Assembly (NCBI RefSeq): GCF_035599575.1
Contig: NZ_CP141179.1
Span: 3,224,001 to 3,288,000, forward strand
DNA: 64,000 nt
Source: Roseovarius sp. Pro17
GTDB taxonomy: Bacteria; Pseudomonadota; Alphaproteobacteria; Rhodobacterales; Rhodobacteraceae
Direction: 5' to 3'
Shown one piece after another: positions 15,786-33,429 of this stretch. Each line of letters starts with the position of its first letter. Positions within the stretch are counted from its first letter, which is position 1. The position numbers and the translations under genes are program-made. Under the pieces are notes generated by a model. That model was not told where the DNA came from. It saw only the letters and a list, made by a program, of their open reading frames with translations, and ran no database searches.

Positions 15786-15837
15786 GGAATTGAACAACGG
15801 AGGATTTCTGGTTCATCGTAACCTTCATGGAGTGAAG

Positions 15838-16212
15838 ATGAACAAGAAATCCGGAACGTCTAAGGACGCAGCTGACAAGCTGGTCAAGAACATCCGCCGC
15901 AAGACCCGTCAGACCTATTCGGCTGAGGAGAAGATCCGCATCGTCTTGGCGGGTCTGCGAGGCGAAGAGAGCATTTCGGTGCTCTGTCGCCGTGAAGGCA
16001 TCGCCGAAAGCCTATATTACAGCTGGTCGAAGGAATTCCTTGAGGCTGGCAAGCGGCGATTGTCCGGCGACACGGCCCGGCAGGCAACGTCGCCAGAAGT
16101 CAAAGATCTGCGCTCGGAGTCACTTGCCCTGAAGGAATGCGTGGCAGACCTGACCCTTGAGAACCGTCTGCTCAAAAAAAGCATGACAGGGGCTGGGGAG
16201 GCAGAGAAATGA
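15838..16212 (+). CDS. IS3-family transposase OrfA
   Basis: This 124-residue DNA-binding subunit of the IS3-type transposase carries a helix-turn-helix (YSAEEKIRIVLAGLRGEESI, then ISVLCRREGIAESLYYSW). A leucine-rich coiled segment at the C-terminus (LALKECVADLTLENRLLKK) serves multimerisation. The ATG at 15838 fits the family better than the upstream ATG at 15790. Its stop overlaps the OrfB start (atga), so OrfB is made by coupled reinitiation or frameshifting. Confidence 0.88.
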   Translation: MNKKSGTSKDAADKLVKNIRRKTRQTYSAEEKIRIVLAGLRGEESISVLCRREGIAESLYYSWSKEFLEAGKRRLSGDTARQATSPEVKDLRSESLALKECVADLTLENRLLKKSMTGAGEAEK

Positions 16213-17189
16213 GGTATCCCGCGTCCGAGAAGCTGGAAATCATCCGAACGGTTGAAGGCTCACATCTACCGGCCAGGCAGACCCTCGACATGCTGGGCAT
16301 CCCGCGCGCGACCTTCTACCGTTGGTATGATCGTTATGTCGACGGCGGCCTTGATGCCCTGGCGGACCACGCACCCCGTCCAGGTTCTGTCTGGAACCGT
16401 ATTCCACAGGATCGGCGCGATGATTTGATCGAGTTCGCGCTGGAATTTGAGGCCCTGACGACACGGGAGCTGGCGGTGAAATACACCGACGAGAAGCGGT
16501 ATTTTATATCTGAATCATCAGCATATCGTATTCTGAAGGAAGCTGACCTGATCACGGCGCCCGCGCATGTGGTGATCAAGGCGGCCGACGAGTTTAAAGA
16601 CAAAACCACGGCAATCAACCAGATGTGGCAGACCGATTTCACCTACTTCAAGATCATCGGGTGGGGCTGGTATTACCTCAGCACGATCCTGGACGATTAC
16701 AGCCGCTACATCATTGCGTGGAAGCTCTGCAGCACCATGCGTGCTGCCGATGTGACCGACACTATCGAGTTGGCTCTGGCGGAATCGGGTTGCGACCAGG
16801 CGGTCGTGCGCCACAAGCCGCGGCTGCTCAGCGACAACGGCTCATGCTATATCTCTGGCGATCTGGCCGATTGGCTGGAGGATCACAAAATGACGCACGT
16901 CCGCGGGGCGCCATTCCACCCACAGACACAAGGCAAGATCGAACGCTGGCACCAAACTATGAAGAACCGGGTTCTGCTGGAGAATTACTACCTGCCCGGC
17001 GATCTCGAGCAGCAGATCGGGGCCTTCGTCGAATATTACAATAACCAACGATACCACGAGAGTCTGAACAACGTCACACCCGCCGACGTCTACTTCGGCC
17101 GCGATAAAGCCATTCTCAGGGAAAGGGAGAAGATCAAGAAACAGACAATCCGACAGCGCCGCTTGCAACACCAGAAACAAGCCGCATAA
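16209..17189 (+). CDS. IS3-family transposase OrfB (DDE integrase)
   Basis: The 326-residue catalytic subunit has an N-terminal helix-turn-helix (LDMLGIPRATFYRWYDRY) and an rve integrase core. The DDE residues are visible in WQTDFTYFK, LLSDNGSCY and GKIERWHQTMKN. The C-terminal YYNNQRYHESLNNVTPADVY motif is standard for IS3. The reading frame is intact, so the element could be active. It begins at an ATG overlapping the OrfA stop. Confidence 0.92.
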   Translation: MRYPASEKLEIIRTVEGSHLPARQTLDMLGIPRATFYRWYDRYVDGGLDALADHAPRPGSVWNRIPQDRRDDLIEFALEFEALTTRELAVKYTDEKRYFISESSAYRILKEADLITAPAHVVIKAADEFKDKTTAINQMWQTDFTYFKIIGWGWYYLSTILDDYSRYIIAWKLCSTMRAADVTDTIELALAESGCDQAVVRHKPRLLSDNGSCYISGDLADWLEDHKMTHVRGAPFHPQTQGKIERWHQTMKNRVLLENYYLPGDLEQQIGAFVEYYNNQRYHESLNNVTPADVYFGRDKAILREREKIKKQTIRQRRLQHQKQAA

Positions 17190-17222: not shown

Positions 17223-18479
17223 TCAAGCCGCTCTGATGTCCCATTTTATTTGACGACGGACAGCCAGTCCGAAGATCACGAAAGCTCGCGGATATTCGGC
17301 GTCTTCGGCCAATGTAGGCTCTATATAGGCGGCCAGATAGCGGCTTTGGCGGATCGCCTCGGCCTGCGCTGAATCGCGGGCTGTCAGGGCCGCGCGATAG
17401 GCCTGTTCGGCAAACTCACGCTCGACGACAAGACCTTCGAATTCCGAGATCAGGGTGGGATAATCCTCGCCGGTTTGCGGCACTTCGGTCGTGGCGAAAT
17501 CGCGGCGCTCCTGGGCGATGCGGCCGCGAATTACCTCAATGCGACGCATGGCCTGACTGACACGAGGGTCGTCGCTGCGGGTGGTTCCGCTTAGCTCGTC
17601 AAAGTCGACGAGCTCGGTGGCCAGTTGCTGCTGAAGGTTGTTCATCACCCCCATTCGGCCTTGAATGTCGGATTGCAGATCGACGATCTGGGTTCGGGTG
17701 CGGAAGCCGGTCAGTTCTGAGCGGGTGTTCTTTAGCCGCTGCTCGGCCTGCGCCAGATCGGCCATCGCATAATTGATGGCATCGACACGCGCGACCTCGT
17801 TCAGCGCGTTCACCATGTCCTGACTTTCACGCACGATATCGCCGGCGATCATCTGGGCCATCAGCGGATCAAAGGCCAGGACTTCGACTTCGATCAACCC
17901 GCTGGACTGCTCGTAGGACACCCGCACGATACGCTTCCAGAACCAGCGCAGATCCTCAATCGACGCATCGGGCCAGAGCGAAAAGACCGGATCCGCGCTC
18001 CAATTCTGTGAATAATATCCACGCAGATCGCGCGCCTCGTCGATCCGCCTGACCAAGGCCTGGCTGCGAATGAATTCGTAAAGGATATCACTATCGCCCG
18101 AAGCGCTGCTGCCCGTAAATTTTGCCAGCCCGCCCAGAAGATCGGTAGCACTGGCGCCTTCCTCCTGACGCACGGTAAAGCCGGCTGTCGAGGCGTATTG
18201 ATCCTTGGCCACCAGACCCAGATAAATCGCCACCACGACCAACGGCACGAGAACAAAAACCGCAAAGCCGATCAGAACCCCCCGGTGACGCCGTTTCATG
18301 CCGGCAGGCTCGGCCATGGGGCGAATATTGACCACGGGGGGCGGCTTGGGTCTACCGCCCGGCCCCGCTCTATGCCCCGGCCCGGCCTTGGGCGCAGGTG
18401 CTTTTCCTGAGCCCACGGCAGCACCCGGCGATTGATCGGGTTTTCGCGGGGCATCGCCCTTTGTGTTGTTATCTGTCAA
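17223..18479 (-). CDS. KpsE/Wzz-type capsule export inner-membrane protein, C-terminally truncated
   Basis: This is a polysaccharide co-polymerase/adaptor-type inner-membrane protein of ABC-dependent capsule export. A proline-rich cytoplasmic tail of about 65 residues precedes the first membrane helix (VLIGFAVFVLVPLVVVAIYLGL). A long periplasmic part with coiled coil follows, containing FTVRQEEGASATDLLGGL and EFAEQAYRAALTARDSAQ. The second membrane helix should start at RAFVIFGLAV, but it is cut short: the last six residues (WDIRAA) and the stop are encoded by the right end of the IS3 element. Loss of that helix probably inactivates it. It is divergent from the KpsM-like permease, 81 bases away. 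Confidence 0.82.
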   Translation of the reverse strand: MTDNNTKGDAPRKPDQSPGAAVGSGKAPAPKAGPGHRAGPGGRPKPPPVVNIRPMAEPAGMKRRHRGVLIGFAVFVLVPLVVVAIYLGLVAKDQYASTAGFTVRQEEGASATDLLGGLAKFTGSSASGDSDILYEFIRSQALVRRIDEARDLRGYYSQNWSADPVFSLWPDASIEDLRWFWKRIVRVSYEQSSGLIEVEVLAFDPLMAQMIAGDIVRESQDMVNALNEVARVDAINYAMADLAQAEQRLKNTRSELTGFRTRTQIVDLQSDIQGRMGVMNNLQQQLATELVDFDELSGTTRSDDPRVSQAMRRIEVIRGRIAQERRDFATTEVPQTGEDYPTLISEFEGLVVEREFAEQAYRAALTARDSAQAEAIRQSRYLAAYIEPTLAEDAEYPRAFVIFGLAVRRQIKWDIRAA

Positions 18480-18560
18480 TTTTCAAACCGTAATAAAGCT
18501 GATAGGCCGTCGGTGCTCTGCATACCTGACAATCGAACGGCTACAAGGGACTTGTCCAGA

Positions 18561-19400
18561 ATGTCCGCCTCCGACCCCTCGCATCCCGAATCTACCGGGC
18601 AGGTTCCGCCCCAAAAACCGGGCGCAGGCCTAACGACGTCGTTTCGCACGGCGCGCACCGTGTTTGCACTTATGCTGCGCGAAATGTCCACCCGTTATGG
18701 CCGCTCGCCCGGGGGGTATCTGTGGGCCATTCTCGAACCTCTTGGCGGTGTATTCATCTTGGCGCTGGCTTTTTCATTGCTGCTGCGCACACCATCGCTG
18801 GGCAACAGCTTCGTCCTGTTCTACGCAACCGGATTCGTGCCGTTTACACTTTATCAGAACATCTCGAACGCGGTGGCGCGGGCGTTGTCGTTTTCCAGAC
18901 CGCTGATGCAGTATCCGGTTGTGACATGGGGCGATGCCGTTCTGGCGCGGTTCACCCTGAATGCCCTGACCGGGATCCTTGTGGGCTATGTCGTCCTGTT
19001 GCTGATCATGGTGATCATCGACACGCATGTGTTGCTGGACATCGTGCCGATCCTCAAGGTGATCTTTCTAACGCTTCTGCTGAGTCTGGCGGTAGGAGTG
19101 TTGAACTGTGTTCTTATCGGGCTGTTCGACGCATGGGACATGATCTGGTCGATCGCAACACGGCCACTGTTTTTGGCTTCGGGGGTCATTTTCATCTACG
19201 AGGACATGCCCCCGGTGGTGCAGAAGGTGCTGTGGTACAACCCACTCATGCACATCACCGGGCTCATGCGCGAGGGGTTCTATTCCACCTATTCGCCCAG
19301 CTACATCTCCGAGCTTTACGTGATCTGCGTCAGCTTGGTCGTGCTTTTTCTTGGCACCGTCCTGCTGCGCCGCCATCACCGCGACATCCTGACCCGCTAA
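18561..19400 (+). CDS. ABC-2 type polysaccharide export permease (KpsM-like)
   Basis: This is the membrane subunit of an ABC exporter for capsular or similar polysaccharide. The 279-residue protein has six hydrophobic helices. It begins its membrane domain with LMLREMSTRYGRSPGGYLWA, the usual entry motif of the ABC-2 family, and ends in the conserved YNPLMHITGLMREGFY segment. The ATG at 18561 is preferred over 18432, which would overlap the divergent KpsE-like gene. The ATP-binding partner (KpsT type) and outer-membrane component are not in this window. Confidence 0.85.
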   Translation: MSASDPSHPESTGQVPPQKPGAGLTTSFRTARTVFALMLREMSTRYGRSPGGYLWAILEPLGGVFILALAFSLLLRTPSLGNSFVLFYATGFVPFTLYQNISNAVARALSFSRPLMQYPVVTWGDAVLARFTLNALTGILVGYVVLLLIMVIIDTHVLLDIVPILKVIFLTLLLSLAVGVLNCVLIGLFDAWDMIWSIATRPLFLASGVIFIYEDMPPVVQKVLWYNPLMHITGLMREGFYSTYSPSYISELYVICVSLVVLFLGTVLLRRHHRDILTR

Positions 19401-19467: not shown

Positions 19468-20448
19468 TTAAAGACCGGCCCAGCCCAGCACCTTGGCATG
19501 CGCCACATCCCTGCGCCGCCCCAGCCCGTCGCGCACGGCCCGCCTGAGAAGTCTTAGATAAAGCAATCTCTGCCCGCCATGTGCGCGCATCTTCCACAGC
19601 CATCTCGGCAGGATCAGGCACAAAGCCGGCCAGAACATCCACCCCGCCGCCAGCCGATAGAGCAGCAGCAGGTTGCGGTGGTAGTAATAGGCCTTCCAGA
19701 TCGGGGCGAATTGCCCCCTCTGAGCGGCAGAAAAGGTCGAGCAATCATGCTCGAACCGCACCATGGGGTCGAATACCATGCGCCCGCCTGCGTGCCGAAG
19801 CCCAAGGGTGTAAAGCCCGTCATCGCCATAAAGGAAAAGGCCCGGATCGGGCAGCCCAGCCAGATCGAGCCCCTTGCTCGATACAAAGAACCCGACGAAG
19901 GATGTGACGTCGATCTCGCGCAGCTCTGTGCCCTGATAGATCGCAGGGGACAGGTGAAACCCGCCCCGCCCGCGCAGCGCGGTGCGCAGAAATTCGCGGC
20001 CATGCCAGAACGGGTTGCGCGACGGGCGGTTCATCTCGCAGATGCGCCCGTCGGGGAAATAGACGGCGGCCGCCACCGCGTCGATCCCGGCCTTGTCGCG
20101 GTCGTGAAAGGCTGCCAGTGCGCCCGGTTCGGGGCGCGCATCGTCGTCCATGACCACCAGCCAATCAGGGTTGAACCGGTCCCGCGCCATGGCCATGCCG
20201 GCGGCAAATCCACCTGCTCCGCCGCGATTGACCTCAAGGCGTTGCGTCACCAGGCGCGGATCGTTCTGCGCGCTCAGCCATTCGGACGTGCCGTCGCTGG
20301 CGGCGTTGTCGACCACCACCACGGCGGTCAGATCCTGCGCAGGACATTCCAGTAGCCGCATCAACGTGATCTTTAGCTGGGCCAGGCGATTATGCGTCAC
20401 CACCACGGCCACGAGCCGTTCCGCCTGCCTTTTGCTTTGCTGTGACAC
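19468..20448 (-). CDS. Family 2 glycosyltransferase (galactofuranosyltransferase-like)
   Basis: The 326-residue protein has a GT-A fold with LVAVVVTHNRLAQL at the start, VVVVDNAASDGTSEWL, NRGGAGGFAAGMA and the metal site LVVMDDDARPEP at about residue 100. The later GLFLYGDDGLYTLGLRHAGG segment is typical of the GlfT2/rhamnosyl-type subgroup. A hydrophobic patch near residue 270 (GWMFWPALCLILPRWLW) suggests membrane attachment. It lies downstream of a perfect 16-base palindrome (20529-20544) that may be an operator. Sugar and acceptor are unknown. Confidence 0.87.
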   Translation of the reverse strand: MSQQSKRQAERLVAVVVTHNRLAQLKITLMRLLECPAQDLTAVVVVDNAASDGTSEWLSAQNDPRLVTQRLEVNRGGAGGFAAGMAMARDRFNPDWLVVMDDDARPEPGALAAFHDRDKAGIDAVAAAVYFPDGRICEMNRPSRNPFWHGREFLRTALRGRGGFHLSPAIYQGTELREIDVTSFVGFFVSSKGLDLAGLPDPGLFLYGDDGLYTLGLRHAGGRMVFDPMVRFEHDCSTFSAAQRGQFAPIWKAYYYHRNLLLLYRLAAGWMFWPALCLILPRWLWKMRAHGGQRLLYLRLLRRAVRDGLGRRRDVAHAKVLGWAGL

Positions 20449-21009: not shown

Positions 21010-23415
21010 TCATCGGGCCAATTTTCTCGACTGAATAAACCGCCGTTCACAAAATGCATACATATGGGTCAATGCGACACCGACGATGACTGCCGAAATC
21101 AGTGACACCCATGGCTTGTTCTCGCCGAATACCTTGGTCACAATGATAATCATCTCGTAATGGCTGAGATAAATAAACATCGAAGCACCGGCGATTTCGG
21201 CCACCAACACCTTCGCTGGCGCTGGCACGACAAAGGCGCGCACGAACAACACGATCACACATCCACCACCCACGTAGTACGCAGCAGAACTCAGCCCCCA
21301 CACGGACCAAACTGCCACGATCGAGACGGCCAGAGCCAAAAGCCGGGTGCGCAGATCGTTCGCACCCGCCAGAACCATGCCAAGCACGAAAGCCCATGCA
21401 TAATGCCACGGGGTCCGGTGGTAGTTGTAATCACCGTTCCAGAAAGATTCGATGGTCCGGTCAACCAGAACCACTGCCATGAGCAAAACAAGAGCACTGA
21501 ACATCGGGCGCACACGGAACGACTCGCGCACTGTCGAAAAAGAAAACAACAATGCAGCAAGCAGCAGCAGCTGGACGTAGAACTCAATGAAGTAAAAGTG
21601 AAATCCCCTTAGTGTATGAGGGTCGAGAAAATTGGAGACCAAGAGCAGTGGCGTTACTTCGAAATTTTGAGTGTATACCTGCAACAAGGCGACCAATATC
21701 AGCGTTGGAATTGCCACATACTTGATGGTCCCGAGCAGCGTTCTGACGCTGCCGGTGCGGATGATCTCGGGCAATTGAAAGCGGGCAACAGAGTAACCCG
21801 CGAGCATGACCAGAAAATAGGCTGCTCCCCAATTGGGACTGTAGACAAACGCACCGGTGTGCAAGGCGACGATGCAGACCATGAAAAACGCACGCGTCAA
21901 GGTAACAGACTCCAGTCGACGCCAGATGGTCTTGACGTTCACGCCAACGTGGCGCTGCAGCTCAGCTACACTGAGCTGTTCCCATTTATTCGGCAGCTGT
22001 CCAAAGCGCTTTTCGAAACTCAGAGAGAACTGAATGTATAGCAGGGAGTCCCCGCCAAGAGTCTCGAACGTATCGTCCGGTCGAATCGCTTGACCGGAAA
22101 ATTCATGCCGAAACAGAGAGAGTACGTCGTTGATCTTGCTTGTAGGCAAGGTCGGCTCGGCAGGCTCCGTGAGCCACTGCGAAACAAACTGCTCTGCGAG
22201 CACACCTCTTTGCACCTTGCCGGTGCCCGTTTTGGGTATGGCATCCACAGCCATGATATGCAGCGAACTGCCGGCCTCGACCCCCATTTCGCGCAGCGCA
22301 GCTACTGCCGCATCTCGCACTGGCCCGGTTTCGGATGGGCCGGTTTGTACCGCGACTAACACGCCGTCGCCACGCTGAGCATCAGGGACTTTCGCAACCG
22401 CAATCTGCGCACCAGATTCTAGCCGCGAGCGAATATGCTCTTCGAGCTGGTCGGGAACGATCTTCATGCCACCGCAATTGATCAGATCGTCGGCCCGGCC
22501 ATCGAAAAACAGATGGCCGTCCCGCATGTGTCCAAGGTCGTTGGTTTGCAGCCAGCCCTCGGCGTCCTGCAGGTCATGCAAACCGTCGCCGTCAATGCGC
22601 GATTTTGCGACATGCGGGCCGCGGATCCGAATACGACCGTCAGCGCTGAGTTGCACATCTGTACGCCCAACGGGTTGGCCTACGGATTCCAGCACGTCCT
22701 TCGATGCGCCGGAAATCTGCAGGAAGGTGCTGCGCGAGGCTTCGGTGAGGCCGTAATGCTGCACGATCAGAGCATTGGGGAAAAGCTCTCTGACGCGGCG
22801 CTTTTCGTCCGCTGTCATTTGCTGCGACCCGATTTCCATCCAGCGCAGGTACTTGCCCGCTTCACCGATGATGGTGGGTTCTGCCAACAGAATGCGAAGC
22901 AAGGTTGGCACCACTGAAAGCGCATTGACCTGGCCGGCGTCGAGCATACGGGCGAGCTCAAGAGGATCAAAACCGCGTGGAGGCAGGTAGGCCTGACCAC
23001 CCACGGCGCTGATTGCCCGGTAGCGAGCCAAGCCGAAGCTGAAGGTAGCCGGCACGCCCACATACTCACGTATCTCTGCGGTCATCTGCATCTGCTTGAT
23101 GATCCGCTCGGCGGCATCAGCCAAATTTGCGTGCGTCAGAAGGATGCCTTTCGGCTGGCCTTCGGTCCCTGACGTGTAGCTGACCTGCGCGGGTGCGTCG
23201 TCGTGAATCAGAGAATGTTCAGCGACAAACCAGCCCGACTGCTCTGCAGGAACGATGCAGCGGTCAATCATTATGCCTGACAAGTTCTCGGCCTGCGCTT
23301 CGTCTGTGACCATCACCACTGGGCGACGCGCCTCATAAAGCGCAAATACCTGCTCGACGAACGCGATCGAGTTTTTGCGGACCACCGCAGTGGCTTCTAG
23401 CTTGATGAAATCCAT
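21010..23415 (-). CDS. Adenylation - carrier - membrane acyltransferase fusion protein
   Basis: This single 801-residue protein combines three modules. Residues 1-415 are an AMP-forming adenylation domain with SYTSGTEGQPKG (79-90), YGLTEASRS (221-229), TNDLGHMRDGHLFFDGRADD (291-310) and the catalytic-lysine motif PKTGTGK (Lys400). Its N-terminal subdomain is shorter than usual. Residues 425-490 are a carrier domain with phosphopantetheine site LGGDS (Ser457). Residues 500-800 form about ten membrane helices with R508-x10-H519, the acyltransferase-3 hallmark. I infer that it activates an acyl or aminoacyl group, loads it on its own carrier, and transfers it across or at the membrane to a surface glycan or lipid. 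A phosphopantetheinyl transferase must come from elsewhere. The start at 23415 has aggaaacg as ribosome-binding site. Confidence 0.85.
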   Translation of the reverse strand: MDFIKLEATAVVRKNSIAFVEQVFALYEARRPVVMVTDEAQAENLSGIMIDRCIVPAEQSGWFVAEHSLIHDDAPAQVSYTSGTEGQPKGILLTHANLADAAERIIKQMQMTAEIREYVGVPATFSFGLARYRAISAVGGQAYLPPRGFDPLELARMLDAGQVNALSVVPTLLRILLAEPTIIGEAGKYLRWMEIGSQQMTADEKRRVRELFPNALIVQHYGLTEASRSTFLQISGASKDVLESVGQPVGRTDVQLSADGRIRIRGPHVAKSRIDGDGLHDLQDAEGWLQTNDLGHMRDGHLFFDGRADDLINCGGMKIVPDQLEEHIRSRLESGAQIAVAKVPDAQRGDGVLVAVQTGPSETGPVRDAAVAALREMGVEAGSSLHIMAVDAIPKTGTGKVQRGVLAEQFVSQWLTEPAEPTLPTSKINDVLSLFRHEFSGQAIRPDDTFETLGGDSLLYIQFSLSFEKRFGQLPNKWEQLSVAELQRHVGVNVKTIWRRLESVTLTRAFFMVCIVALHTGAFVYSPNWGAAYFLVMLAGYSVARFQLPEIIRTGSVRTLLGTIKYVAIPTLILVALLQVYTQNFEVTPLLLVSNFLDPHTLRGFHFYFIEFYVQLLLLAALLFSFSTVRESFRVRPMFSALVLLMAVVLVDRTIESFWNGDYNYHRTPWHYAWAFVLGMVLAGANDLRTRLLALAVSIVAVWSVWGLSSAAYYVGGGCVIVLFVRAFVVPAPAKVLVAEIAGASMFIYLSHYEMIIIVTKVFGENKPWVSLISAVIVGVALTHMYAFCERRFIQSRKLAR

Positions 23416-29781: not shown

Positions 29782-31728
29782 CTAGTTCGCTTTCGCGAGA
29801 GATAGTCCCAAGAGATCTATTCTACGCCCCAGAGACTGCGCACTTTCTACCGATAGATGTCCGTGATCACGGTACAAAAAGACATCGCCATCTGAGGCCG
29901 CGCAGCTTCCTTCCCGGCACATTAGTTTATCCAAGAAAACTACAGGAAAATCCTTCCCGACTTCATCCAAAAGCCGATATGATTTTATTCGTGCGTCGGT
30001 ATAATCTTGCGTTGTGAAATCGCATCTTGAAAGATCTTCATCCCACAAGATTGCGTACAATAGGCAATCGCCAATATCAGAACCTGAATTGGGCGGAGGG
30101 GAAACAATGACGACCCGCTTTTTCAGGGCGCGTAGTGACTCTATAGTCGATAGGATGTGCGCCAATCCATATGTGTCATCGCTGTTGTCGATTGTTTTTC
30201 CCGTTCTGTCGGTCACTGTACCCGCCGTGTGAAACGGTGAGGACAAAATTATCGTTGAAATATTGGCCTGCTTTGAAACCCAGTCAAGAACTGCATCATT
30301 AAATTCTACGCATTCCCGCGCCTGTGCCAGCGACAGTTCACGACCAGCGACACCCAGGATCGGCCAACAGGCGCCCTTTGTGATCTGTTGGACGCCAACG
30401 TCTGCGGCGCTGTCGCTATATTCCAGCCATTTAGCAAGATGCATTGCATAGCTGTCGCCCCAAAGCAGTACTGATGGGTTATCTGACGTCCGACAGGCCG
30501 GAGAGGCTATGGCGGATTCCAAGCTTTTCACGCAGGCACGGTCCAGCCCTACGTTGAATGCCAGCTTTTCGTCAGACAGAAAGTCGCTGTACCTGATGCC
30601 GTTTGGGGCCATTCGGAACGGCGCGCCCCCGGATTGCAATACCAACACGCCAACGCAAACCAGCACGGCCATGCCCGCGCCGCCGACTACAAAAACTGAC
30701 TTCTGCGTTGGAAGAAGTTGCCGGTCGCGACGCCTGAACGGTTGCTCTACGAAGCGCCAGCTAAGGTACGCAAGGCCCAGCGTCATCACAGACAAAAGCA
30801 TCATCCAAGCCATGGCGGGTTCTTGCGGGCTTCGAATTCTGGCAAAGGCAAAAAGCGGCTGGTGCCAAAGATAGGCACTATAACTTATCAAGCCAATCCC
30901 TACGAATAGCTTGAGTGACAGGATATGGGCGACCACCGTCAGAGGCCCTGCAAAAAGGATAATCAACACACTGCCCATGACTGGCACAAGTGCATAGACG
31001 CTGGGAAAAGGCACCGTTTCATCGAATGCGAACACAGCAAACAAGACAAGCCCAAGCCCTAACGCCGCCAGCGCATTGTTTGAATATGGATCACGATCAA
31101 ACAGCAAAATCGCGCAGAGTGACCCTGCCAAAAGTTCCCAGAAACGCGACAGCGTAAAATAGAAGTTTGCGTCCGGCTCGTTCCGCCACCCCCATTCACT
31201 CAGCAGCAATGACGCCAGCGCCAGAACTCCCAAAAGCCAAGCAAAACGGCCCAACTTGCGTGTTCCTGCGAGGATAATTAGCAGCGGGAAAACAAGATAA
31301 AACTGCTCTTCGACCGCGAGGCTCCAAGTGTGCAGGAGCGGTTTGAGATCCGTGTCACTTGCAAAATAACCCGCTGTTTCCCAGAAATGTGCGTTTGAGA
31401 TGAAAAGGGCTGTCGCTGCAACGCTGCGGGCGAAATCTGCCAAAATTTGAGGAACCATCCATGCCCATGCAAATGGTAGACAAGCGAAGATAACTAAATA
31501 AAGAGCGGGCAAAATTCTGCGCGCACGACGCTCATAGAACCTTCGGATACTGAAAACACCGGCTGCACGCTCTGCCAATATGATTGTCGTGATGAGATAG
31601 CCACTAATGACAAAGAATATGTCGACTCCGACATAGCCACCGCTGAAAACGCTCGCGCCCGCGTGAAAAAATATGACGGGCAGTACAGCGACTGCTCGCA
31701 ATCCGTCGATTTCACTTCTGTATTTCAT
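29782..31728 (-). CDS. OafA-type acyltransferase with C-terminal SGNH domain
   Basis: This inner-membrane enzyme probably O-acetylates a surface polysaccharide. The 648-residue protein begins with the acyltransferase-3 domain. EIDGLRAVAVLPVIFFHAG contains the R-x10-H hallmark, followed by GYVGVDIFFVISGYLI and WSLAVEEQFYLVFPLLI, and about ten helices to residue 365. The periplasmic C-terminal part is an SGNH-like domain with VLLWGDSYAMHL as block I and DHGHLSVESA as the His-containing block. This two-domain architecture is standard for bacterial O-antigen and exopolysaccharide acetylation. Near the sulfotransferase gene it suggests a glycan-decoration patch. Confidence 0.9.
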   Translation of the reverse strand: MKYRSEIDGLRAVAVLPVIFFHAGASVFSGGYVGVDIFFVISGYLITTIILAERAAGVFSIRRFYERRARRILPALYLVIFACLPFAWAWMVPQILADFARSVAATALFISNAHFWETAGYFASDTDLKPLLHTWSLAVEEQFYLVFPLLIILAGTRKLGRFAWLLGVLALASLLLSEWGWRNEPDANFYFTLSRFWELLAGSLCAILLFDRDPYSNNALAALGLGLVLFAVFAFDETVPFPSVYALVPVMGSVLIILFAGPLTVVAHILSLKLFVGIGLISYSAYLWHQPLFAFARIRSPQEPAMAWMMLLSVMTLGLAYLSWRFVEQPFRRRDRQLLPTQKSVFVVGGAGMAVLVCVGVLVLQSGGAPFRMAPNGIRYSDFLSDEKLAFNVGLDRACVKSLESAIASPACRTSDNPSVLLWGDSYAMHLAKWLEYSDSAADVGVQQITKGACWPILGVAGRELSLAQARECVEFNDAVLDWVSKQANISTIILSSPFHTAGTVTDRTGKTIDNSDDTYGLAHILSTIESLRALKKRVVIVSPPPNSGSDIGDCLLYAILWDEDLSRCDFTTQDYTDARIKSYRLLDEVGKDFPVVFLDKLMCREGSCAASDGDVFLYRDHGHLSVESAQSLGRRIDLLGLSLAKAN

Positions 31729-31884
31729 CGACGGACCTTTTACTCAATCCTGGTTCCCGTGACCTCGCCCACCGCCCCTCTCGACGATCTGCGTCAGCGT
31801 GCCTGAGCATAGGAAACTGTTTCTCTAACCATCCAGAGGCCAGTTCAGTTTCTTCTGCCGCTACATAGTCGCGGATAGGGCTGA

Positions 31885-32913
31885 TTAGGGGCCCTTGGCG
31901 CTCTTCACAAGACTGTTCAACTCGCCAAATAGGGTGCCCAACTTTTTGCGTTGTTCGACTTCTTCAGCGCTCATTGCGTCAGGCGGACGCGAGTCCGCTT
32001 TCTCACGCAATTTTTCGCCAAGCTTTTCGTGCAGGCGGATTGGACGAGGGTTTGGATTGTGCAGCTCATACCCCAGTTGTTTTAAGACCGCCCCACCTTC
32101 GGCCTCTACATACTCCAATTCGCGTGCATCCATTTCTTTCAGGTACTTCTGGGAGTTGTCCGCTTTGATAGGCTGCGCCAACTCTTTCCAGAAGATCGAG
32201 CTCTGAGAGTGTTTGATTGTTTCCGAGCTGCTGTAATATTCCAGCTGGGATGCCTCAAATTCCAGACCTACGCGTGTCATGAGGGGCCTCAGGACCGCTT
32301 CTGGCGACGCGGTCAAATCCTCGTAGCGGATCGTGTGGGTTATGTCCGATACGCGACTGTCTTTCAGGGCGTCCAACATTTTCTCTTGCTCTCGCGTCCA
32401 GCGTGCGATCCCCTGCCGCATAGTATTGGCGTAATGCCTCTTACGCACCATGGATACTGCAACATCGCGGCCGTCCCGCACCAGATGTACGACATGAGCG
32501 TTTGGAAAAGTCGCGGCGATCTCGACGGCATGTCCGATCAATCCTGGCTCCTTGCTCAGCCAGATCTCGCCTCCAGACTTTTCGCTGAAATAGAGATTAT
32601 AGGCCGCAAACAGATCCCAGAAGGTCGGAGCCACCGGAAGGGCCGCGAGAACTTCGTCCGGCTCGGGGCAATGCACCCACTTGTTCATGTGTGTCTGCGT
32701 CAGCTCATTGGCGTAAGAGATTATTTTCTCCAGCGGCAGTGGAGCACCGGCGCGTTTGAAAGCCTCAAACACGGGGTGCAATCCCACGACCATGCCCGAT
32801 GGCGGCGGCGAGGATATTTTTGAGTGTGACGACAAGATTGACCGAAGTAGGTTCGTGCCGGACCGTTCAGATGCCAGAATAAAGATGGCGGGCTGGTCGC
32901 GCAGGGTGATCAT
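31885..32913 (-). CDS. Sulfotransferase family protein
   Basis: It is predicted to transfer sulfate from PAPS to a hydroxyl or amino group. In the 342-residue protein the 5'-phosphosulfate loop is ERSGTNLLRSILSSH near residue 16, and the 3'-phosphate site is HVVHLVRDGRDVAVSM at about residue 145. The charged C-terminal 60 residues (RLHEKLGEKLREKADSR and later) look like an extension. The ATG at 32913 has aagg seven bases ahead and is preferred over the TTG six bases upstream. The acceptor may be the same surface glycan as modified by the neighbouring acyltransferase. Confidence 0.85.
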   Translation of the reverse strand: MITLRDQPAIFILASERSGTNLLRSILSSHSKISSPPPSGMVVGLHPVFEAFKRAGAPLPLEKIISYANELTQTHMNKWVHCPEPDEVLAALPVAPTFWDLFAAYNLYFSEKSGGEIWLSKEPGLIGHAVEIAATFPNAHVVHLVRDGRDVAVSMVRKRHYANTMRQGIARWTREQEKMLDALKDSRVSDITHTIRYEDLTASPEAVLRPLMTRVGLEFEASQLEYYSSSETIKHSQSSIFWKELAQPIKADNSQKYLKEMDARELEYVEAEGGAVLKQLGYELHNPNPRPIRLHEKLGEKLREKADSRPPDAMSAEEVEQRKKLGTLFGELNSLVKSAKGP

Positions 32914-33429
32914 AGGCAACCTTGATTTGGTTGAAGGGACGTTGCTGTTTACACATGGGCAGTCACCAGTGGCACCTTTATTTATAGGGGTAATGGTGTC
33001 AGAGAATTTGAGCTTATTTCTGCAATAATGGTGTAGTTATATCAAATTATACTTGAAACGTTGCTGTTCTGACTCAGTCAGTTTCCAACGCAAGATCTGC
33101 TCAGGATTCAAAGCTATCATCTAGGTCTATTGGTCGTATTTGCCCCGTAGTACAAATTGCGATCTGGCGGGGATTCACACTGGGGTCTGGCGTGATAGCT
33201 TGTGTGGCTGAGCAAAACTGTCCTCCCGGCAAGTGTCATGATCCCTGTGTATCTGGCCCGGTCCATGCGGGTGTAATATTCGGTTACGCGTTGAAACGCT
33301 CGTCGAAATGATAGCGACTTGACTGCGTGCGTCAAACAATTCTCGGGAATTCCTGCCACCTTTCTCGAAGTTGGGGAGAGCCAGATAGAAGGGACTGTTA
33401 CGTTGTTGGGCAGCCGGAAGGCATACTGC
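32914..33429. other. Non-coding or degraded DNA
   Basis: Only short unrelated frames occur here. The interval leads into a dispersed repeat (33430-33503) and an IS5-family transposase fragment, so it is probably an accumulated mobile-element graveyard. An A+T-rich stretch at 32960-33060 probably includes the sulfotransferase promoter. Confidence 0.4.

Follow-up and report, generated by a model that had tools for sequence, protein, structure and literature searches.

Introduction

In the Dlt system, D-alanylation depends on an adenylation enzyme (DltA), a carrier (DltC) and a membrane transferase (DltB). Aas, the acyl-acyl carrier protein (ACP) synthetase/phospholipid acyltransferase, is a single polypeptide that both loads an activated acid on a carrier and transfers the acyl group, using a PlsC-type domain and free ACP. 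The epsilon-poly-lysine and delta-poly-ornithine synthetases (Pls and PosA) likewise hold adenylation, carrier and membrane domains in one chain, and they polymerise amino acids using condensation-like domains. Here, we analysed a stretch of 64,000 nucleotides from Roseovarius sp. Pro17 (contig NZ_CP141179.1, positions 3,224,001 to 3,288,000), hereafter called the window, which carries on its minus strand (21010..23415) a gene for an 801-residue fusion of an adenylate-forming (A) domain, a carrier and an acyltransferase-3 (AT3, or TmAT) membrane domain (A-T-AT3). We propose that this protein is probably a self-contained transmembrane acyltransferase that produces its own acyl donor, small-acid loading on the Ser457 carrier feeding the AT3 pore instead of acyl-coenzyme A (acyl-CoA).

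Enzymes of the AT3 type act on a wide range of bacterial surface molecules, and how their acyl donor gets across the membrane is under active study. The AT3 papers examined assume acyl-CoA to be this donor; a 2022 review (PMC9558356) argues for acyl-CoA, and not ACP, as the AT3 feed and names fusions with SGNH and racemase domains, the eukaryotic NRF being a further partner named for AT3s. In two studies (PMC9833829, PMC12423673), the Arg of transmembrane helix 1 (TMH1), an RxxR motif in TMH3 and further basic residues are linked to CoA binding, and in OafB simulations the counterpart of Arg508 touches the CoA 3'-phosphate. Our literature searches, which covered subscription journals thinly, found no paper describing an adenylation-carrier-AT3 fusion.

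Results

The gene starts with ATG, and a plus-strand reading of the same interval is interrupted by stops. A first-pass annotation made from the sequence alone had described a single chain with Lys400, Ser457 and R508-x10-H519; all of these residues were found where it had placed them in the minus-strand open reading frame (ORF), and the three fused domains it had named each exceeded their Pfam cutoffs, namely AMP-binding at residues 67-271 (105.4 bits, cutoff 29.9), PP-binding at residues 441-472 (23.6 bits, cutoff 20.8) and Acyl_transf_3 at residues 503-782 (41.6 bits, cutoff 31). No MBOAT transferase of the DltB type was found in this Pfam scan, Acyl_transf_3 being found instead. Alignments and AlphaFold2 models also supported the three modules, the predicted folds being those of an adenylate-forming domain of reduced length, a carrier and an AT3 domain with ten helices, with the expected key residues. 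All coordinates given below for parts of the protein are on the minus strand.

The A domain comprises residues 1-410 (22186..23415), with the P-loop motif YTSGTEGQPKG at residues 80-90 (23146..23178) and the catalytic Lys400 of motif A10 at 22216..22218. By profile score and core motifs (A3, A5, the Asp and Arg of A7, and the Lys of A10), it can be assigned to the ANL adenylate-forming enzymes. In an alignment of 145 fused rows (144 proteins, the window protein and the identical P0001 both being counted), S82-G83, D293, R307 and K400 were present in every row and E225 in 144/145, and the catalytic Lys was also found in 15/15 other ligases. Lys318 of the fusion stands where 14/15 of these ligases have Asn. 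The N-terminal subdomain had been noted as unusually short, with TSGTEG at residues 81-86; this was confirmed and proved common to the aligned relatives. Indeed, the AMP-binding match starts only at profile position 156, and superposition of the model on full-length ligases sets in only near their residue 53.

The carrier domain (residues 428-492, 21940..22134) was delimited by Pfam, by the helices of the model (431-438, 457-471 and 483-491) and by alignment with holo-EntF (5t3d), which matched the model across residues 6-492. Ser457 (22045..22047), the predicted phosphopantetheine attachment site within GGDSL, was invariant in 32/32 and 54/54 aligned rows, and S82, K400, R508 and H519 were invariant with it in the 54/54 AT3-type relatives, whose alignment rows were hand-chosen. 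The segment thus has the predicted marks of a carrier, a PP-binding domain with an invariant Ser opening helix 2.

The membrane domain (residues 503-800, 21016..21909) has about ten transmembrane helices, and its ten-helix fold together with R508-x10-H519 in TMH1 (21859..21894) places it in the AT3/TmAT superfamily. We compared it with other AT3 domains at TMH3 (residues 558-582, 21670..21744), where RxxR is missing. Fused AT3 domains numbered 143 (129 close, 9 mid-range and 5 distant members), after P0001 was dropped and the hexapeptide-type proteins of L044 and L048 were left out. The 64 AT3s without a loader comprised 28, mostly of the AT3-SGNH type by frame length, from 31 loci (L082, L105 and L108 being without an AT3 domain), and 36 with shorter frames. 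R/K-x10-H was present in 143/143 fused domains and in all loader-free ones, since rows were chosen that way. A strict motif, defined as RxxR followed by Pro after 1-3 residues, was found in 53/64 loader-free AT3s (25/28 and 28/36) but in only 1/143 fused ones (0/129 close, 0/9 mid-range, 1/5 distant). Moreover, an Asp three residues ahead of the TMH1 Arg was present in 23/28 and 25/36 loader-free AT3s versus 0/129, 1/9 and 0/5 fused ones. Among 45 aligned close members, S745, H752 and R545 were conserved in 45 and Y749 and T505 in 44; Arg occupied the R545 column in only 1/24 loader-free AT3s. As a control, we used the 648-residue AT3-SGNH protein of the window, which retains the RxxR motif; the interval 29782-32919 holds this second AT3 protein next to a sulfotransferase gene. 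Judged by the strict motif, the close members appear to lack the TMH3 RxxR of acyl-CoA-dependent AT3s. This residue pattern is as expected for a donor that is still used at its phosphopantetheine end and not at its adenosine end, though it is not proof.

A protein search that scored 8000 candidates returned at least 2060 relatives at E <= 0.001, the best 120 at 66-100% identity. The annotation had proposed a search for the same architecture, and this succeeded, both AMP-binding and Acyl_transf_3 being annotated in 112 of the best 120 relatives; on these sequences, the fusion is not a chance product and is part of a large family of full-length fusions. A survey with one genome per species gave 50 loci, 36 at 53-77% identity (including Hydrogenophaga, Paracoccaceae, Novosphingobium, Sphingopyxis, Neorhizobium and Devosia) and 14 at 34-44%, nine of which are Sphingomonadales by genus name. 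Among 35 congeners of the window genome, no match exceeded 42%, and four had relatives at 36-42%. On plasmids, 62/2007 matching records span at least 80% of the protein, and 27 of the 30 plasmid matches listed have 24-27% identity. In the tree of the close clade, Comamonadaceae are nested among otherwise alphaproteobacterial sequences, a placement that fits horizontal spread of the gene. In Neorhizobium galegae pNgVX (L076), a relative with 91% query coverage is annotated as two genes, a fatty acid--CoA ligase and a hypothetical protein, and the fusion gene may be broken there. No loader-free relative of this AT3 was found among five matches inspected: P0121 and P0122 begin at an internal Met within TMH1, and P0126, P0147 and P0148 still contain the carrier.

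The loader also occurs with other C-terminal partners. A short A-carrier lineage is joined to AT3 by Pfam in L040, L041, L043 and L049, and the same short A-carrier is fused to hexapeptide repeats in L044 (9983-12127), inside an O-antigen-type cluster, and in L048 (9989-12148). In this Pfam scan, which left out L053, the proteins of L042, L045, L047, L051 and L052 had no named C-terminal domain, yet R/K-x10-H aligns in all five, and their membrane-like domains are possibly an unlisted AT3/TmAT branch. The A domain of L040 groups with L041 and L043 (branch support 96/84) and its AT3 domain with four distant members (95/94). The main and distant fused AT3s form one clade (99/98) containing 0/12 loader-free AT3s, and their A domains form two long-branched lineages whose union was not rejected by the approximately unbiased test (p-AU 0.419), so that a separate origin of the distant A domain found no support; both the A-domain and AT3 trees carry long-branch warnings. 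On the loader tree, whose deep branches are mostly weak, transferase type changed 3 times, versus a shuffled mean of 6.8. We put forward only tentatively, as somewhat short of an even chance, that carrier-fed AT3s may be a separate class, in which the holo-carrier replaces acyl-CoA as the rod through the pore. The CoA clamp would have eroded in consequence in several lineages, and a single loader module would have been combined with AT3, AT3-like and hexapeptide transferases.

The fusion gene is separated by 439 bases on its 5' side from a small flavodoxin/FMN-reductase-like gene and by 561 bases on its 3' side from a GT2 gene, and with such wide gaps it appears to stand alone; promoter and terminator scans around it gave weak patterns only. 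The GT2 glycosyltransferase (GlfT1-like by Pfam and NCBIfam profiles, 19468..20448, minus strand) is followed by a KpsM-like capsule export permease (18432..19400, plus strand) and a KpsE/BexC/CtrB-family protein (17223..18479, minus strand). The last of these stops at 418 residues without the final ~30 profile positions and is abutted by an IS3-like element (HTH_Tnp_1 and rve, 15790-17189), and this capsule export gene may be interrupted. We compared 55 stretches, several of them short, made up of the 50 surveyed loci, the four congener loci and the window. The fusion clusters together in 53/55, and the next commonest gene cluster occurs in 6/55; conserved neighbours, which the annotation had also proposed to seek, were thus not found. 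Flanking ORFs were chosen by length, so that some may be false (L017 had none picked), and 105/134 from 30 loci were scanned, 29 being left out for size or as near-duplicate loci. The 105 ORFs represented 121 Pfam families, each found in at most 4 of them, with Wzx-type, Wzy-type, polysaccharide deacetylase and AT3 families in two each. A plasmid copy in Paracoccus zhejiangensis lies between porin and gamma-glutamyltransferase genes, and in congeners G016 and G009 the GT2, KpsM and KpsE matches stand together with no fusion match within the ~4 kb examined. Conserved linkage to capsule or O-antigen cluster genes was therefore not observed, and the polysaccharide-island placement, which had been taken to suggest decoration of a surface glycan, is local, since the flanks vary between hosts and two congeners carry the capsule-export genes but lack the fusion. 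We rejected this island function as a general role and kept it as possible for mid-range members.

With no conserved glycan genes adjoining the fusion in the hosts examined, we considered a nonribosomal peptide synthetase (NRPS)-like small-molecule enzyme, in which AT3 would hand the acyl group to a lipid or to a diffusible molecule (a secreted metabolite or a metal binder, for example) and not to a glycan. Consistent with this, an iron ATP-binding cassette (ABC) transporter set (substrate-binding protein, permease and ATPase) adjoins the distant A-T-AT3 gene in 5/5 actinobacterial plasmid records examined; such a set was seen beside distant fusions in L080, L115, L116, L117 and L119 and also in L077, with Fe(3+) ABC genes in Pararhizobium, and was not beside the fusion in L078, L079, L081, L113, L114 and L118. 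However, no such association with iron transport was observed in the clade to which the window protein belongs, the distant members are only ~25% identical, and some mid-range members lie among glycosyltransferases (L041, where two GT4-type genes flank the fusion) or in an O-antigen-type cluster (L044). We consider this explanation unlikely.

Discussion

In the carrier-fed mechanism that we favour, the short adenylate-forming domain would use ATP to convert a small non-amino carboxylic acid to acyl-AMP, and would then move the acyl group onto the Ser457 phosphopantetheine arm of its own carrier. The carrier would dock at the cytoplasmic mouth of AT3, so that the acyl-phosphopantetheine arm enters the pore otherwise filled by acyl-CoA, and His519, with Arg508, would assist acyl transfer to an acceptor at the outer face of the inner membrane. 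Sequence and model show the modules, their folds and their key residues; we infer this order of steps, the docking, the acid and the acceptor. As the gene appears to travel between genomes on its own, the likely acceptor is a constituent of the cell envelope that numerous hosts possess anyway.

Several observations weigh against this mechanism. By sequence, every one of the nearest A domains of known structure is a CoA ligase, the PP-binding score is barely over its cutoff, and the full-length structure prediction, a check that the annotation had suggested, recovers the three modules and not their relative placement (predicted template modeling score, pTM 0.55). The 143 fused sequences share kinship and do not represent 143 independent losses, and strict RxxR..P is also missing in 11/64 loader-free AT3s, making it a usual and not a universal feature. 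A lax motif, RxxR anywhere in the 113 residues past the His, persists in 29/143 fused AT3s (27/129 close, 0/9 mid-range, 2/5 distant), versus 58/64 loader-free ones (28/28 and 30/36). L077 retains the RxxR..P string and a basic residue occupies position 565, the second RxxR column, in 33/45 close members, so that we rejected the notion that RxxR is always lost. Finally, Arg508 is kept in the fusion, which leaves room for CoA use. The kinship of the A domain, Arg508 and the frequent TMH3 basic residue would also fit a conventional acyl-CoA ligase making CoA thioesters for a CoA-using AT3, with a vestigial or structural carrier, as would the preference for acyl-CoA in the review cited above. Ser457 is nevertheless invariant in aligned relatives, TMH3 RxxR..P is nearly gone from the fused set, and the carrier also persists in fusions whose transferase is of the hexapeptide type; we find this arrangement quite improbable.

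As to the cargo, the annotation had envisaged an acyl or aminoacyl group. Gly128 occupies, in 145/145 rows, the site of the amino-binding Asp (motif A4), so that the signature of an NRPS/DltA-type amino-acid-activating domain appears to be absent, and sequence comparison with enzymes of solved structure gives oxalate and malonate ligases as the nearest; aminoacyl transfer is therefore unlikely. R131, R133 and R228, predicted from motif positions to lie near the substrate pocket, occur without exception in close and mid-range members and in none of 15 other ligases, and may accommodate a substrate that is acidic or hydroxylated. An NRPS-like loader with an AT3 passing an amino acid to a surface glycan, as a one-chain analogue of DltA-DltC-DltB, does share the general layout of the Dlt system, but on Gly128 and these pocket residues we rejected it as the leading explanation and hold it to be very improbable. 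The acyl part of the earlier proposal is favoured, and its interpretation as a whole was about half right.

If the carrier-fed mechanism is true, acids without a ready CoA pool could reach the cell surface through a single transferable gene, and the family could show how AT3-class membrane enzymes are fed. A built-in covalent donor, together with the near-lost CoA-contact motif, would make the donor question testable by one Ser-to-Ala mutant.

Compared with described AT3/TmAT enzymes (OafB, OatA and OacA; HGSNAT and GWT1), the close clade of the fusion appears to have lost the TMH1 Asp and TMH3 RxxR..P and is fused N-terminally to a loader and carrier. ANL enzymes such as oxalate--CoA ligase, MatB and MenE are its best sequence and structure matches, alike in core motifs and fold, whereas the fusion is without ~50 N-terminal residues, has Lys318 for the usual Asn, and bears a covalent carrier behind the domain. 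NCBIfam PRK06814 and PRK08633 (Aas-type) match through the ligase part; in contrast to Aas, the fusion has AT3 and a fused carrier. The fusion would work like the Dlt system, from which it differs in being one chain, in using AT3 and not an MBOAT transferase, and in having no amino-binding Asp.
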